A stretch of 64,000 bases of DNA. Origin: Brachyspira hampsonii (GTDB lineage: Bacteria; Spirochaetota; Brachyspiria; Brachyspirales; Brachyspiraceae). The DNA lies in NCBI RefSeq assembly GCF_002214805.1, contig NZ_CP019914.1, positions 3,100,001 to 3,164,000 on the forward strand. Reading direction: 5' to 3'. Numbering within the stretch: the first letter of the stretch is position 1; the number at the start of each line of letters is the position of its first letter. The notes under the pieces are model-generated. The model ran no database searches, was not told the origin of the DNA, and worked only from the letters and a program-made list of their open reading frames with translations. Of the stretch, positions 40,126-55,766 are shown piece after piece. Position numbers and translations under genes: made by a program.

Positions 40126-40366
40126 GATATCTCCAACTATATAATATCATTATATATTATACAATTTATTTTGTTTTAGTACAATTATTAAAAATTATTA
40201 ACTTTAATATTTATTAGTAATATAATATCTTGTTATTAGTTTTATGCCTTTAATTTGATTTTTATATATAATTTTTACTATCAAATCAAGCATTGGAATG
40301 AAAAATATAATTGGGTTATTATCTTATATGTTTTTTATGCAATAAAATAAATTCATTTATATATTC

Positions 40367-40394
40367 TTGACAAAAAATATATATAATATATAAT
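40367..40394 (+). promoter_or_regulatory. Promoter ahead of the AACTCAG repeat
   Basis: TTGACA (40367-40372), 16-base spacer, TATAAT (40389-40394). Expected transcription start is about 40401, eight bases before the first repeat unit and next to an ATG at 40404. Confidence 0.6.
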
Positions 40395-40408
40395 AGTTTA
40401 AATATGAA

Positions 40409-40504
40409 AACTCAGAACTCAGAACTCAGAACTCAGAACTCAGAACTCAGAACTCAGAACTCAGAACTCAGAACTCAGAACTCAGAACTCAGAACTCAGA
40501 ACTC
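40409..40504 (+). repeat. AACTCAG heptanucleotide tandem repeat (13 perfect copies plus partial)
   Basis: AACTCAG is repeated without error from 40409 to 40499, then AACTC. It lies between a strong promoter and the glycosyltransferase gene. An ATG at 40404 opens a frame through the tract (heptapeptide TQNSELR repeated) that stops at 40509-40511, 35 codons in all, without a clear ribosome site. Because 7 is not a multiple of 3, copy-number change alters the frame and the leader length. The 260 bases from there to the gene hold no other gene; a 10-bp hairpin (40514-40523 with 40535-40544) follows the tract. Confidence 0.95.
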
Positions 40505-40776
40505 TCATTAATATACTATAAAATATATTCTATTTTTTATAGTACAAAACCTCTATTGTCATTGCAAGATTTAGTTTTAATAAAGATTTTATTAGACAAT
40601 CAATTTCTGCTTTCAATTAATTATTTGATTATAAAAAATAAATTAATATTTTTTTTAGTTTACTTTAAAAATAAAAAAATAATAACTCTTTTAAGCAAAT
40701 ATATAATTTGATGAATATTCCTTTAATACAAATATATTTAAATATTTTTCATAATTATAAAATTAAAGGAGTTTTT

Positions 40777-41703
40777 ATGTACTTAGCACCTGTAGGTTTA
40801 GTAGTTTATAATAGAATTGAACATACAAAAAGAGTTATTGAAGCTTTAAAGAAAAACACTTTGGCTTCAGATACTGATTTATATATATTTTCAGATGCAC
40901 CTAGTAAAAAAGAAGATGAAGAAGCTGTTTATGAGCTTAGAGAATATTTAAAAACTATAAAAGATGGTTTTAAAAATGTTTATATATATGAAGCTCAAAA
41001 AAATTTAGGTATAAAATATTCCACTGTTAATGCAGTAAACACAATATTTGAGCATCATGAATATTTTATAGGTTTGGAAGATGATATTGAGACAAATAAA
41101 CATTTTCTTGAGTTTATGAATAATGCTTTGAATTATTATAAAGATGATGAAGATGTAATTGCTATAACAGCATTTTCTCATAAACATGCTACTAAAAATC
41201 ATAAACATGATGTTATATTTACATACGCTTTTCATAGTTGGGGTTGGGGTACTTGGAAGAGTAAATGGAATAATATAAATTGGGATACTTGCGATACTTC
41301 TTGGTATAATAAAAGTATTAAGCATAAAATATTAGGAGGTGTTTTTTCTTGGTTTCATTTACTTGCTATAAAAAAGTCTGTTAAGGATAATCTTTATGTT
41401 CAAAATAATTTATGGGATATTTATTATTCATTTACAATGTATAAAAATAAAAAATTATGTGTTTGGCCTTCAAAAAAATCTTTTACAAATAATTTTGGTT
41501 TTGATGGTACAGGCTATCATAAATTCGATTTTCATCATGGCTACTTTGAAAAAAATTTAGATGATGATAATATGAATATAGAGTTTTCATCTGATAAAAA
41601 AATGAATTTCTTTGAGTATCTAATTATATCAATAAAGATTGGTATATTCAGTTGGGCTAATGGATTTATAAGTATGTTTTTTAGTAAATTTCTTAAAAGA
41701 TAA
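40777..41703 (+). CDS. Glycosyltransferase, GT2/GNT-I-like
   Basis: A 308-residue glycosyltransferase. The first ~110 residues carry a GT-A fold: APVGLVVYNRIEHTKRVIEAL, DLYIFSDAP, IYEAQKNLGIKYSTVNAVN and the metal-site DxD-type GLEDDIE (near residue 100). A Trp-rich segment follows (YAFHSWGWGTWKSKWNNINWD), typical of a family of sugar transferases in capsule/LPS loci. The last ~25 residues are hydrophobic and may anchor the protein. The start at 40777 follows AAAGGAG; an in-frame ATG 69 bases upstream has no ribosome site. Regulation may involve the upstream repeat. Confidence 0.78.
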   Translation: MYLAPVGLVVYNRIEHTKRVIEALKKNTLASDTDLYIFSDAPSKKEDEEAVYELREYLKTIKDGFKNVYIYEAQKNLGIKYSTVNAVNTIFEHHEYFIGLEDDIETNKHFLEFMNNALNYYKDDEDVIAITAFSHKHATKNHKHDVIFTYAFHSWGWGTWKSKWNNINWDTCDTSWYNKSIKHKILGGVFSWFHLLAIKKSVKDNLYVQNNLWDIYYSFTMYKNKKLCVWPSKKSFTNNFGFDGTGYHKFDFHHGYFEKNLDDDNMNIEFSSDKKMNFFEYLIISIKIGIFSWANGFISMFFSKFLKR

Positions 41704-41707
41704 AAAA

Positions 41708-42328
41708 TTAAATCTTTGCCCACTTTTCTACTTTTATAACCCAAGCATTAGTTTGATTAGCAGCTTCAAGTCCTACTTCGCTGTCTTCAAATATAATGCT
41801 TTCTTCTTCTTTTACATTGAAATGATTTATACATTTAAAAAATATTTCTGGGTGAGGCTTCTTATTTTGTATATCATTTCCTGTTAATACTAAATCAAAT
41901 AATTTTTCAAGATTGAATTCTTTTAATATAGCATAAACTCCTTTTGGAGATGAGGTTGTTGCTAATGCTGTATGTTTTTTATTATCTTTTTTATTATAGT
42001 TATCAATTAAAGTATATAATATAAAAGGGTGAATTTGTATGAGATTAAGATTTGCTAAATATATTTTTTCTTTTAAATTATGAATGGATTCTATTAATTC
42101 ATTATTTTTATTTTCATCTTTCGTAATTTTATTATTTAATTCTAAAATATTTTCTGTAAATATCTTATAATGAAGTCCGAAGCATTTGTTATAATAGTAA
42201 TCTTTATCTAATTCTATATTAAATTCTTTGAATGCATTGTAATAAGAGTAATAATTTAAGTATGCACTATCTATAAGAGTGCCGTCCATATCGAATATGA
42301 GTAATTTTATATTATTATTGTTTAACAT
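41708..42328 (-). CDS. HAD-family hydrolase, beta-phosphoglucomutase-like
   Basis: A 206-residue HAD protein: LLIFDMDGTLIDSAYLN (motif I, residues 9-25), LATTSSPKGVYAIL (motif II), KKPHPEIFFKC (motif III Lys) and IIFEDSEVGLEAANQT (motif IV). The helical cap and the E-D-S-x-x-G-x-x-A-A motif fit the beta-phosphoglucomutase/phosphatase subgroup. The substrate is probably a sugar phosphate. It converges with the glycosyltransferase, four bases from its stop. Confidence 0.85.
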   Translation of the reverse strand: MLNNNNIKLLIFDMDGTLIDSAYLNYYSYYNAFKEFNIELDKDYYYNKCFGLHYKIFTENILELNNKITKDENKNNELIESIHNLKEKIYLANLNLIQIHPFILYTLIDNYNKKDNKKHTALATTSSPKGVYAILKEFNLEKLFDLVLTGNDIQNKKPHPEIFFKCINHFNVKEEESIIFEDSEVGLEAANQTNAWVIKVEKWAKI

Positions 42329-48314: not shown

Positions 48315-49172
<858 letters not shown>

Positions 49173-51471: not shown

Positions 51472-52848
51472 ATGAGAAAAATATTTTTAGTATTTGCACT
51501 TGTCTTTATGACTGCATCAATGGTACTTGCTCAGGAAAGTACTCAGAAACCTCTTAATATAAAAGATTCGCTTATTTCTTTGGCTAGAAATACAGCTTTT
51601 GGAGGACTTTTTCCTAGAAGCGAACAGGAAATAGCAGAAGCTCAGGCTAAAGCTGAAAATAGTAAGCAGGAAAAATATCAAACTAAATTAAATGATATTA
51701 AAGTAAAATCTGTACCACTATGGCAGAATCTTATAATGATTTGTGTAGGACTAGTTTTAGTTTATCTTGCTATAGCTAAAGGATTTGAACCATTACTTCT
51801 TATTCCTATAGGTATGGGTGGTATTTTGGCTAATATTCCTATTGCTAATATTGCAGCACTTCCTGTAGTTGAAGTTATGAACGGTATACCAGTAACTTTA
51901 AGTAGCGGAGGTTTTTTGGGTCAGATATACACTTTTGGTATTGAATCTGGATTGTTCCCATTATTCATATTTATAGGTGTTGGTGCTATGACAGATTTCG
52001 GACCTCTTATTGCTAACCCTAAAACTGCATTATTAGGTGCTGCTGCTCAGATAGGTATATTCGGAACTTTGCTTGGTGCTATGATATTATCAACTTATGT
52101 TCCTGTAATTTCTTTCACTTTGAAAGATGCTGCTTCTATAGGTATTATAGGCGGTGCTGACGGTCCTACTGCTATATTTACAGCTTCAAGACTTTCACCT
52201 TCTTTATTGGGTGCTATTGCTGTTGCTGCTTATTCATATATGGCTTTGGTTCCTATTATTCAGCCTCCTATTATGAAATGGCTTACTACTGAAAAAGAAA
52301 GAAAAATTGAAATGAAACAGTTACGTCCTGTAAGCAAAAGAGAAAAAATTATTTTCCCTCTTAGCGTTATAATACTTGTAGCTTTACTTTTACCTGATGC
52401 TGCTCCTCTTATTGGTGCTGTTATGTTTGGTAATTTGCTTAAAGAATCTGGTGTTACTGACAGACTTTCAAAAACTGCTCAGAATGAATTAATAAACATT
52501 GTTACAATTATGTTAGGTTTATCAGTTGGAAGTAAATTAGCTGCTGATAAGTTCTTACGTTTTGAGACACTTGGTATATTGGTATTAGGTTTAGTAGCAT
52601 TCTCTATGGGTACTGCAGGCGGTGTTCTTCTTGCTAAATTAATGAATTTATTCAGCAAAGATAAAATCAATCCGCTTATTGGTGCTGCCGGAGTATCTGC
52701 TGTTCCTATGGCTGCAAGAGTTGCTAACAAAGTAGGACAAGAGGCTAACCCTCATAACTTCTTACTTATGCATGCTATGGGACCAAACGTTTCTGGTGTA
52801 ATTGGTTCTGCAGTTGCTGCTGGAGTGCTTTTGGCTATACTTGGTTAA
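51472..52848 (+). CDS. oadB: Sodium-pumping decarboxylase beta subunit
   Basis: A 458-residue polytopic membrane protein that decarboxylates carboxybiotin and exports Na+. It has a signal-like first segment, then about ten membrane helices and the family motifs [56 protein letters not shown] and [18 protein letters not shown]. Conserved Asp, Asn and Ser residues of the Na+ site are in these segments. The N-terminal ~75 residues form an extra charged region not seen in short OadB proteins. A strong terminator follows. Confidence 0.93.
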
Positions 52849-52872
52849 TGATTAAATTATTTATAAAAAATT

Positions 52873-52910
52873 AAAAGGTGTGAATCTTCAAAATGATTTG
52901 CACCTTTTTT
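52873..52910 (+). terminator. Terminator of the oad operon
   Basis: AAAGGTGTGAATC (52874-52886) pairs with GATTTGCACCTTT (52895-52907) over 13 positions with two G-T pairs, followed by TTTTTT-rich DNA. It lies 25 bases after the oadB stop. Confidence 0.85.
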
Positions 52911-52933
52911 ATTTATTCTATATTGATTTTTTT

Positions 52934-52961
52934 TTGATATATATTATACTATAGATATACT
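52934..52961 (+). promoter_or_regulatory. Promoter ahead of the CAGCAAA repeat
   Basis: TTGATA (52934-52939), 16-base spacer, TATACT (52956-52961). Expected start about 52968; AAGGA at 52966-52970 and an ATG at 52979 precede the repeat. Confidence 0.55.
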
Positions 52962-52982
52962 ATTCAAGGAATGATTTGATGT

Positions 52983-53199
52983 CAGCAAACAGCAAACAGC
53001 AAACAGCAAACAGCAAACAGCAAACAGCAAACAGCAAACAGCAAACAGCAAACAGCAAACAGCAAACAGCAAACAGCAAACAGCAAACAGCAAACAGCAA
53101 ACAGCAAACAGCAAACAGCAAACAGCAAACAGCAAACAGCAAACAGCAAACAGCAAACAGCAAACAGCAAACAGCAAACAGCAAACAGCAAACAGCAAA
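52983..53199 (+). repeat. CAGCAAA heptanucleotide tandem repeat (31 perfect copies)
   Basis: CAGCAAA is repeated 31 times without error. An ATG at 52979, eight bases after AAGGA, opens a frame through the tract (heptapeptide SKQQTAN) that ends a few codons after it, 75 residues in all. The tract has no stop in any frame on either strand, so long ORFs seen here in other frames are artefacts. It lies between a promoter and the glycosyltransferase at 53309. A copy-number change of one or two units would shift the frame. Confidence 0.97.
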
Positions 53200-53308
53200 A
53201 TTCTAAATTAATCAGTCAAAACTTTTTCTTTTTTATTTTAATCAAAAGTAATTTTATCTCTTCATTGCAAATTTTTTTATATAATATTTGTTTTATAGGT
53301 GCTTCATT

Positions 53309-54247
53309 ATGAAAATAAGTGTAATAGTACCTTGTTATAATGAAGAGCTTGTTATAGAAATATTGTATAATAGATTGATTAATGTACTTTCTAATTATAA
53401 TGATTATGAAATAATTTTTATAAATGATGGAAGTTATGATAATACAGAATATATAATCAATAAATACAGAAAAGAAAATAATAATATAAAGCTTTTTTCT
53501 TTTTCAAGAAACTTCGGTCATCAGGCTGCCGTAAGCTGCGGTATTCTTAATTCTTCAGGTGATATAGCTATAATAATAGATGCTGATTTACAAGATCCTC
53601 CAGAGCTTATACCTTCTATGATAGAAGAGCATATTAATTCAAAAGCTAATGTTATATATGCATGCAGAACTTCAAGAGAAGGGGAGAGTTTTATTAAAAA
53701 AATTACTGCTAATTTATTTTATAGATTAGTTAATTTATTATCGGATGTGAAATTTCCTCTTGATACAGGAGATTTTAGATTAATAGATAGAAATGTAATT
53801 AATGCATATAAACAATTTAAAGAAAAGCCCAAATATATACGCGGATTAATTAGCTGGATGGGATTCAAACAAAAACCATTTTTATATAATAGAAAACCTA
53901 GAGAAGCTGGTAAAACTAAGTATACATACAAAAAAATGTTTAATCTTGCTTTAACTGCTGTAATATCATTTTCTACAAAGCCTTTAAGAATATCTTTAAT
54001 TTTAGGTATTTTATCTATGGTTTTGGCTCTTATATTGTCTTTATATGTATTTATAAAATATTTCTTTTTTAATTCTGATATTATAAAAGGCTGGTCTTCT
54101 ATAATGATAACTGTTATTTTTATGGGAGGTGTTCAGCTTTTAAGTTTATCTGTAATTTCTGAATATTTAGCAAAAATATATGAACAAATAAAAAACAGAC
54201 CTGAGTTTATTATAAAAAATAGTGAGGATGAAAATTATGAAAAATAG
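53309..54247 (+). CDS. Family 2 polyprenyl-phosphate sugar transferase (DPM1/GtrB-like)
   Basis: A 312-residue GT2 enzyme of the type that loads a sugar onto polyprenyl phosphate. The GT-A domain has VIVPCYNEELVIEILYNRL, IFINDGSYDNT, FSFSRNFGHQAAVSCGI, and the DxD motif in IIDADLQDPPELIP. Two membrane helices at the C terminus (about 230-255 and 265-290) match the GtrB/ArnC-like group. ATG at 53309 follows AGGTG. The 110 bases before it hold only the end of the repeat region. The next gene, an overlapping GT39 protein, is the expected lipid-sugar user. Confidence 0.87.
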   Translation: MKISVIVPCYNEELVIEILYNRLINVLSNYNDYEIIFINDGSYDNTEYIINKYRKENNNIKLFSFSRNFGHQAAVSCGILNSSGDIAIIIDADLQDPPELIPSMIEEHINSKANVIYACRTSREGESFIKKITANLFYRLVNLLSDVKFPLDTGDFRLIDRNVINAYKQFKEKPKYIRGLISWMGFKQKPFLYNRKPREAGKTKYTYKKMFNLALTAVISFSTKPLRISLILGILSMVLALILSLYVFIKYFFFNSDIIKGWSSIMITVIFMGGVQLLSLSVISEYLAKIYEQIKNRPEFIIKNSEDENYEK

Positions 54248-55766
54248 TATTAAAAGATTTATAAATATAATAATAAAAAATAAAGTTTTTCTCATTTCAT
54301 TTATATTCATCATATTGTCTTATATATTAAGAACAATACTATTAACATTTACAACTTTAATAGATGATGAAGCTCATTATGCATTATGGACAAAGCATTT
54401 ACCGTTCGGATTTTTTGACCATGGCGGTGGTATAGCATTTTTTATGAAACTAAGCATGATCATATTTGGAAATACTGGATTTGGTGTTAGGTTTGGAAGT
54501 ATTTTATTTAGTATATTAGTATCTGTTTTTATTTATATATTTGTAAGTAAAGAAAAAGATGAAAACGCTGCTGTAATATCTGTTATACTCTTTAATACAA
54601 TACCTTTTTTTGCCGGTCTTTCGCTTATTGTAACAATAGATACACCTATGTTTTATTTTTTACTTTTTTCTATAATGGCATATTATAAGGCTATATATTC
54701 AAATAAAAATTATTTTTATTTGGCCGGATTTTTATTTGGATTTAGTTTGCTTTCTAAAGAGGGTGCTATTTTTGTAGGTTCTTCAATATGTTTTTTTATA
54801 TTAATTTCAAATAGAAGAAAAGAGATTTTTTTATACAAAGAGTTTTATTTATCATTTATAGCTGCCGCTTTAGTTTATTTGCCTTTTATAATATATAATT
54901 TTCAAACGGATTTCACATTCATAAAATATGCATTAGACAGACAGCTGCAAAAGCCGGGAAGTATTAATAGAACTTTGGACTTTTGGGGGGCACAAATAGG
55001 TTTATACAGTCCTTTATTTTTTATATTATTTTGTTATTTGATTATAAAAACAACTTTGCAATTTTTTAATAAAAAAGAAACAGAAAATAATTTTTATTTT
55101 GCTTTTATATCTTTAATACCTTTTATTTATATAGTTCAAAAATCTTTCAAAAATAAATTGGAAGCTAATTGGGCTTTATTTATGTATGCTGGAGGTTTAT
55201 TTTTAGTATCGTATTATATATCTAAAAACTGGAATAAAAAATATATAAGAAATCTTTTTCTTTCCAACATTTTACTTTGCAATATAGCTATTTTTATAAT
55301 AATACTTCAATATTTTGTGCCTATTATACCAATAAAAGGAGACCCTACTGATAGATATTATAAATATAATGCTATAAGGTATGATTTAAAAGAATATTAT
55401 AATTTAAATATGGATAAGAATATTAGAATGTTTGCATTAAATTATCAAATTCCTTCAATGATTAATTTTTATATAAATCCGGAAAATGAAGCAGTATGTT
55501 TAAATTGGAATACATATCACCCTACAGTATTTGATTTTTGGTATGATGATAATAACTTTATAGGAGATGATTTATATTATATAACTACTTCTCCTGATAC
55601 AAATTTAGCTTCTAAGTATTTTGATAGTATTGAATATATAACAAACTTTCAATCATATAGAAAACAAATTAATGGAGATAAAAGGTATTTAGATAATTAT
55701 TATATATATTTATGCAGAAATTATAATGGTAAAAAACAGACTATATTTATAAAAGTGAAAAAATAA
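54237..55766 (+). CDS. GT39/ArnT-like membrane glycosyltransferase
   Basis: A 509-residue integral membrane protein with about eleven helices. It has the PMT/ArnT-type start: a first helix, then a periplasmic loop with the catalytic acidic pair in LIDDEAHYALW (near residue 42), and HGGGIAFFMKLS. It probably uses the polyprenyl-linked sugar made by the preceding gene to decorate a surface glycolipid or protein. The start at 54237 overlaps the previous gene by 11 bases. GAGGA lies before it. The acceptor is unknown. Confidence 0.85.
   Translation: MKNSIKRFINIIIKNKVFLISFIFIILSYILRTILLTFTTLIDDEAHYALWTKHLPFGFFDHGGGIAFFMKLSMIIFGNTGFGVRFGSILFSILVSVFIYIFVSKEKDENAAVISVILFNTIPFFAGLSLIVTIDTPMFYFLLFSIMAYYKAIYSNKNYFYLAGFLFGFSLLSKEGAIFVGSSICFFILISNRRKEIFLYKEFYLSFIAAALVYLPFIIYNFQTDFTFIKYALDRQLQKPGSINRTLDFWGAQIGLYSPLFFILFCYLIIKTTLQFFNKKETENNFYFAFISLIPFIYIVQKSFKNKLEANWALFMYAGGLFLVSYYISKNWNKKYIRNLFLSNILLCNIAIFIIILQYFVPIIPIKGDPTDRYYKYNAIRYDLKEYYNLNMDKNIRMFALNYQIPSMINFYINPENEAVCLNWNTYHPTVFDFWYDDNNFIGDDLYYITTSPDTNLASKYFDSIEYITNFQSYRKQINGDKRYLDNYYIYLCRNYNGKKQTIFIKVKK

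Follow-up and report, generated by a model that had tools for sequence, protein, structure and literature searches.

In the erm and cat leaders, whether ribosomes can reach the start signal of a gene depends on the translation of a short open reading frame (ORF) upstream of it. A short upstream ORF plays the same part in Escherichia coli iraD (PMC5574718). At the pil1 locus of Streptococcus gallolyticus, a leader peptide is longer or shorter according to the copy number of a GCAGA repeat, and the ribosomes translating it disrupt a premature terminator (Danne et al., 2014; PMC3894217). In E. coli K1, AAGACTC heptamers lie within the neuO gene itself, which is concerned with a surface polysaccharide, and every third copy number is ON (PMC13001214). 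Tandem repeats of variable copy number are also known in Brachyspira, as the VNTR loci that serve as typing markers (MLVA; as cited in PMC8116685). The Brachyspira genome papers that we examined mention no phase variation and present tandem repeats at most as such markers; our literature search, which covered few subscription journals and is therefore weak evidence, returned no paper joining Brachyspira, tandem repeats and phase variation.

Our analysis of a 64,000-base window (bases 3100001-3164000 of a one-contig Brachyspira genome of 3,189,639 bases; coordinates below are those of the window) points to a locus, with its promoter at 40367-40394, that would work like the pil1 attenuators but falls outside that class because it has no terminator. 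As in pil1 and pil3 (PMC3894217), where the downstream gene is a surface gene, a repeat array lies in a leader ORF that has its own promoter and start codon and precedes another gene; as in pil1, the copy number moves the leader stop towards the downstream gene or control element. The pil1 attenuator, our nearest precedent, has a 5-bp unit and an intrinsic terminator, whereas the Brachyspira locus has a 7-bp unit, no terminator, and a candidate anti-Shine-Dalgarno (anti-SD) sequence at the leader stop.

The promoter that the first-pass annotation had described as near-consensus, TTGACA-16-TATAAT (40367-40394, plus strand), in fact matches the consensus at 12 of 12 positions and is the sole such match in the 2.5 kb that we scanned. 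Weaker promoter-like matches (at least 9/12) occur there at chance level (25 versus 24.3 expected), so that the weight rests on the exactness of this promoter and on its conservation: a like promoter stands 9-11 nt 5' of the leader ATG in G009, G005, G020, G002, G015 and G017, and in G004 with TTAACA. The scan gave no promoter-like site on the plus strand between 40395 and 40776, and thus none in the interval 40512-40776, where a further promoter had been named as an argument against control by the repeat. The leader ATG (40404-40406, plus), whose position is common to the same seven related genomes, lies about 3 nt 3' of the expected RNA start, and the transcript would be nearly leaderless. 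The perfect 7-bp repeat reported between promoter and glycosyltransferase gene is borne out by TRF (period 7, 13.7 copies, 100% match): the (AACTCAG)13.7 array occupies 40409-40504 (plus), starts 14 nt 3' of the -10 hexamer and contains no stop in any of the three sense frames. Such perfect arrays are rare, with 3 found in 400 kb sampled evenly from the genome, and we do not attribute this one to chance. A transcriptional repeat switch, with the array between the -35 and -10 hexamers or 5' of the promoter, is ruled out by its position. The unit drifts between species, to AAACTCA, CAAAACT or, in G019, the 8-mer AACAAATC; despite this drift, the place of the array and its lack of sense-strand stops are kept.

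The window holds a second module of the same design on the plus strand (52979-54247), in which an ATG (52979-52981) is followed by a (CAGCAAA)31 array (52983-53199, TRF) and an open frame (53200-53312) whose TGA overlaps the ATG (ATGA) of a family-2 glycosyltransferase gene (53309-54247; PF00535, E 1.1e-33). This module is predicted to be OFF at 31 units and ON at 30 or 33. The first-pass annotation had expected such repeats to mutate quickly, and array lengths do differ between related genomes: the window and G009 have 13.7 and 12.7 copies in the first module and 31 and 7 in the second, in modules otherwise about 99% identical. Slippage would account for these differences. The array modules resemble the Brachyspira MLVA loci in being variable tandem repeats in the same genus, those loci serving as typing markers. 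The ~99% identity to G009 extends over 40357-41970 and 51960-55700, versus an average of about 82% between the two genomes over sampled alignments and 79.6% for the genes 3' of the first module. Both array modules were apparently exchanged between species recently, and the arrays would have changed afterwards. A (TTA)16 tract at 48430-48477, between the modules, lies inside a glutamate-racemase-like ORF (48315-49172, minus strand) and encodes an asparagine run.

The ATG at 40404 opens a 35-codon ORF (40404-40511, plus), as had been noted, but this frame is only the product of the present OFF phase. Comparison of orthologous loci revealed a second conserved reading frame 3' of the array, a leader body of 68 codons ending in the TGA at 40709-40711 (40505-40711, plus), and the array very probably sits inside the coding part of this larger leader ORF, to judge from the aligned sequences. 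A profile of the leader body recovered the orthologous frame in 11 genomes (E<=1e-19) and no convincing match or paralogue elsewhere, including at other array loci; with no match in Pfam either, we rejected its assignment to a known protein family. Its length is equal, with zero indels, in six compared sequences, and the seventh carries a 27-nt in-frame deletion; the length of the spacer 3' of it varies among the compared sequences. Some of its residues are invariant across the compared genomes; the more distant pairs give a dN/dS of 0.24-0.71, and the closest pairs are uninformative in this respect. Identity in the same genomes is 44-59% for the leader body versus 86-91% for the enzyme. The leader body thus evolves far faster than the enzyme, and its best-conserved property is the openness of its frame.

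The ATG is in frame with the leader body (ON) in G016, which has no array, in G005 (2 units) and in G004 (2-3 units), where an insertion separates the leader from the glycosyltransferase gene. It is out of frame (OFF) in G000, G009, G020, G002, G015 and G017, which have 4-19 units. This excess of OFF states (0/6 long-array relatives are ON) is not significant and cannot by itself show switching. Leader and enzyme are two separate ORFs even in the array-less G016. In the window, copy numbers of 11.7, 14.7 and 17.7 units put the frame ON and those of 12.7, 13.7, 15.7 and 16.7 put it OFF, a cycle with a period of 3; at the present 13.7 units it is OFF, and the gain of one unit or the loss of two would turn it ON. 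The ON-phase leader protein would have 97-111 aa in the window and 73-75 aa in genomes with a short array or none. Counted from 40777, the leader stop falls at -265, -255 or -65, depending on the phase; in the OFF phases it comes 7-17 nt past the array and leaves about 200 nt of leader untranslated. Translation would end short of 40777 in each of the three phases. No copy number would therefore join the leader ATG to the glycosyltransferase, and the locus is likewise not a classical contingency gene of the neuO or licA type, in which the switched gene carries the array within its own coding sequence. The locus is like neuO in having a heptanucleotide array near a start codon and, by prediction, in being ON at every third copy number, but unlike neuO its array lies in a separate leader ORF that is never fused to the enzyme. 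An ATG overlapping the leader stop (TGATG; 40711-40713, plus), in the frame of the glycosyltransferase, may be a coupled start; it is absent in some relatives.

The glycosyltransferase has a good SD of its own, with the region ATTAAAGGAGT at 40762-40772 (plus), which makes basal expression possible. This region is predicted to pair with an anti-SD sequence, ATTCCTTTAAT (40717-40727, plus), adjoining the leader stop (duplex of -14.8 kcal/mol, p<=0.01 against shuffles), and ATGAA (40711-40715) to pair with TTTAT (40774-40778), which would close both the SD and the start codon. A duplex of -14.8 kcal/mol is reached by 2.7% of control genes (n = 258). With a ribosome footprint on the leader stop, the predicted accessibility of the SD rises from 0.00 to 0.31. 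The SD-anti-SD pairing is kept in G000, G009, G005 and G015, and in G017 a different sequence takes the part of the anti-SD; the predicted pairing is significant in all five. In G020, G021 and G022 it is weaker, and its partner lies within the last part of the ORF. Pairing is not above chance in G016, which has no array, or in G002, whose leader stop was moved by a deletion to 16 nt before the gene. An intrinsic terminator is ruled out as a control element of the 40777 leader, none having been detected there, and folding of the whole leader was no better than that of shuffles (z -0.23), which speaks against the whole leader as a structured RNA. The anti-SD is likewise unsupported as a general rule of array leaders (mean z -0.7, with 7/30 below -1.64).

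The predicted pairing of the SD, together with its accessibility under the footprint, led us therefore to propose translational attenuation. The RNA would begin a few bases before the ATG at 40404, where ribosomes would enter and go on to translate the AACTCAG array. With a unit of 7 bp, the gain or loss of one copy would shift the frame of the ribosomes beyond the array. In the ON class (11.7, 14.7 or 17.7 units), ribosomes would run through the 68 codons to the TGA at 40709-40711 and there cover the anti-SD, freeing the ribosome-binding site of the glycosyltransferase. In the OFF classes, including the present 13.7 units, they would stop about 200 nt sooner, the anti-SD helix would shut and the glycosyltransferase would be low or silent. 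Rho-dependent polarity could supplement or replace this attenuation. The predicted pairing of the SD with a segment at the leader end is what translational attenuation by a leader ORF calls for, and with iraD and the erm and cat leaders the locus would share the control of a start signal by an upstream ORF; in those systems a regulator or a drug is the trigger, whereas here control would lie with a hypermutable array.

The gene at 40777-41703 (plus) encodes a protein of 308 aa without a match above cut-off among the Pfam and NCBIfam models. Its AlphaFold2 model (pLDDT 78.5, pTM 0.83) has a GT-A fold, which Foldseek places near POMGNT1 (E 6e-11) and GnT-I (E 1e-10), and an acidic motif, E101-D102-D103, is invariant over 18 relatives. 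The modelled fold agrees with the surface-type glycosyltransferase named in the first-pass annotation; action at the surface is the part we infer, and a surface glycan is the likely product of the enzyme modelled here. Relatives occur in 22/26 genomes of the genus and are close in 14, some only as part of the gene; the closest named ones are in B. hampsonii 30446, Brachyspira sp. G79 and an uncultured Brachyspira. In related genomes (L013, L018/L031, L020 and L012/L050), the gene has an internal TGA (G022), looks frameshifted (G015) or shortened (G017), or is parted from its leader by an insertion (G004); errors of draft assembly may account for such defects.

We consider the locus a real and conserved, and probably functional, phase-variation device. 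That the array switches the 40777 enzyme, through either the anti-SD or polarity, seems to us quite likely, and a slippage-driven switch of the leader frame and the downstream gene, with opening of the anti-SD, is the best single explanation and one we hold to be reasonably probable. The anti-SD is our best guess for the link between leader and enzyme, and Rho polarity its main rival. If the same frame switch acted on transcription, leader RNA would be open to Rho in the OFF phases and protected by ribosomes in the ON phase, and the anti-SD would be incidental; the untranslated stretch of ~200 nt in the OFF phases fits this, as does a leader that is open yet fast-evolving, as expected if only the passage of ribosomes matters, and intrinsic terminators play such a part in S. 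gallolyticus and in three pentamer leaders of Brachyspira (below). The 40777 leader is, however, without an intrinsic terminator, and its anti-SD pairing surpasses that of 97% of control genes; we regard a purely transcriptional link as rather unlikely. Still less probable is that the small leader protein is itself the phase-variable product and the glycosyltransferase is expressed independently: the invariant residues and the dN/dS values in the more distant pairs would suit a functional protein, but its low identity beside that of the enzyme, its lack of a known family or of paralogues at other array loci, and the unrelated sequences encoded by other array leaders, which still end at the next gene, argue against it.

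The frame also bears on the reading of the first-pass annotation, that the repeat alters the length, structure or stability of the leader RNA, with graded effects and the frame irrelevant. The array is predicted to be transcribed and its length does vary, and a phase-variation target is plausible as had been suggested; the conserved frame, the period-3 design and a unit free of sense-strand stops in nearly all arrays that follow an ATG make the reading frame, with every third copy number ON, the likely switch and a length effect very improbable. We give just as little credence to a neutral microsatellite in a decaying region, with frames open by chance in A+T-rich DNA. Such decay could explain the stop in the G022 contig and the split or truncated gene in the draft contigs of G015 and G017, but hardly why rare arrays with drifting units are kept at orthologous places between a start codon and an open frame, why the promoter is conserved, or why the layout recurs as described below.

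To place the locus in the genus, we collected 31 distinct leaders from 0.8 Mb of the own genome, 0.4 Mb of G009 and the loci of related genes; some of these stretches were picked for known arrays or related genes, so that the set is a biased census. A frame from the array covers at least 90% of the distance to the next gene in 19 of the 31, whereas shuffled leaders would give 5.3 and upstream regions without arrays 5.8 (P=2e-8). An ATG lies within 8 nt of the array in 24/47 cases, versus 17% of random upstream positions, and nearly all arrays that follow an ATG have a unit without stops on the sense strand. Present copy numbers across the genus put 10 leaders ON and 33 OFF, compatible with one in three. 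In the other two frames, stops that follow closely on the array were not above the level of shuffles (18 versus 16.2), and we rejected selection for them. Among the downstream genes are glycosyltransferases and a lipoprotein family (MNKKILSIFVMVMALSLLGVSC); inspection by eye adds a chemoreceptor-like protein as well as membrane proteins. The sequences that the other array leaders encode are unrelated, yet they end at the next gene.

Several individual loci deserve mention. In three pentamer leaders, an intrinsic terminator (-15.8 to -21.2 kcal/mol) separates the array from the gene: arrays of ACAAC (L061:18149-18187), ACAGA (L162:1735-1810) and AGACC (L164:17374-17431) precede a methyltransferase-like, a glycosyltransferase-like and an oxidoreductase-like gene, respectively, and from their sequence look like pil1-type attenuators. 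At L001:1442-2405 (own genome 2215199-2216162), an (AACTCAG)8.7 array lies in the leader frame of a lipoprotein gene and is now OFF; in the right phase the frame would run unbroken into that gene, over 312 codons at 7.7 units or 319 at 10.7, and similar arrays precede members of this family in several species. Two adjoining GTCAACA arrays (18.9 and 9.9 units) share one leader before a transporter-like gene, predicted to be ON (L134:7952-8152). The word TTGCA occurs in 17/28 distinct leaders, versus 5.0 expected; it stands at 40562-40566 in the window, is absent from the array-less G016, falls in differing reading frames and sometimes forms an arm of a small hairpin, and we found no uniform explanation for its enrichment in leaders.

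Taken over the genus, it is fairly probable, from these sequences, that Brachyspira has a set of randomly switching genes in which hypermutable arrays of 4-, 5-, 7- or 8-bp units lie in separate, fast-evolving leader ORFs before glycosyltransferases, lipoproteins, a chemoreceptor-like protein and membrane proteins, and in which the distance travelled by ribosomes would act, depending on the locus, through opening of the start signal, overlap of start codons or read-through of a terminator. Repeat-based phase variation is itself well known; a repeat in a leader ORF with a 7-bp unit and a candidate anti-SD differs from the known systems. Compared with pil1, the Brachyspira loci belong to another phylum and are many more, and three pentamer leaders do have the terminator layout. 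The design tends to escape automatic annotation, since most assemblies have the leader ORF out of frame. If our reading is true, a design known experimentally from two pilus loci of one Streptococcus species would be used many times in another phylum, and the gut spirochaetes of this genus, among them the agents of swine dysentery and of intestinal spirochaetosis, would switch a hitherto undescribed set of surface and sensing genes at random, a possible reason why colonies and isolates differ.
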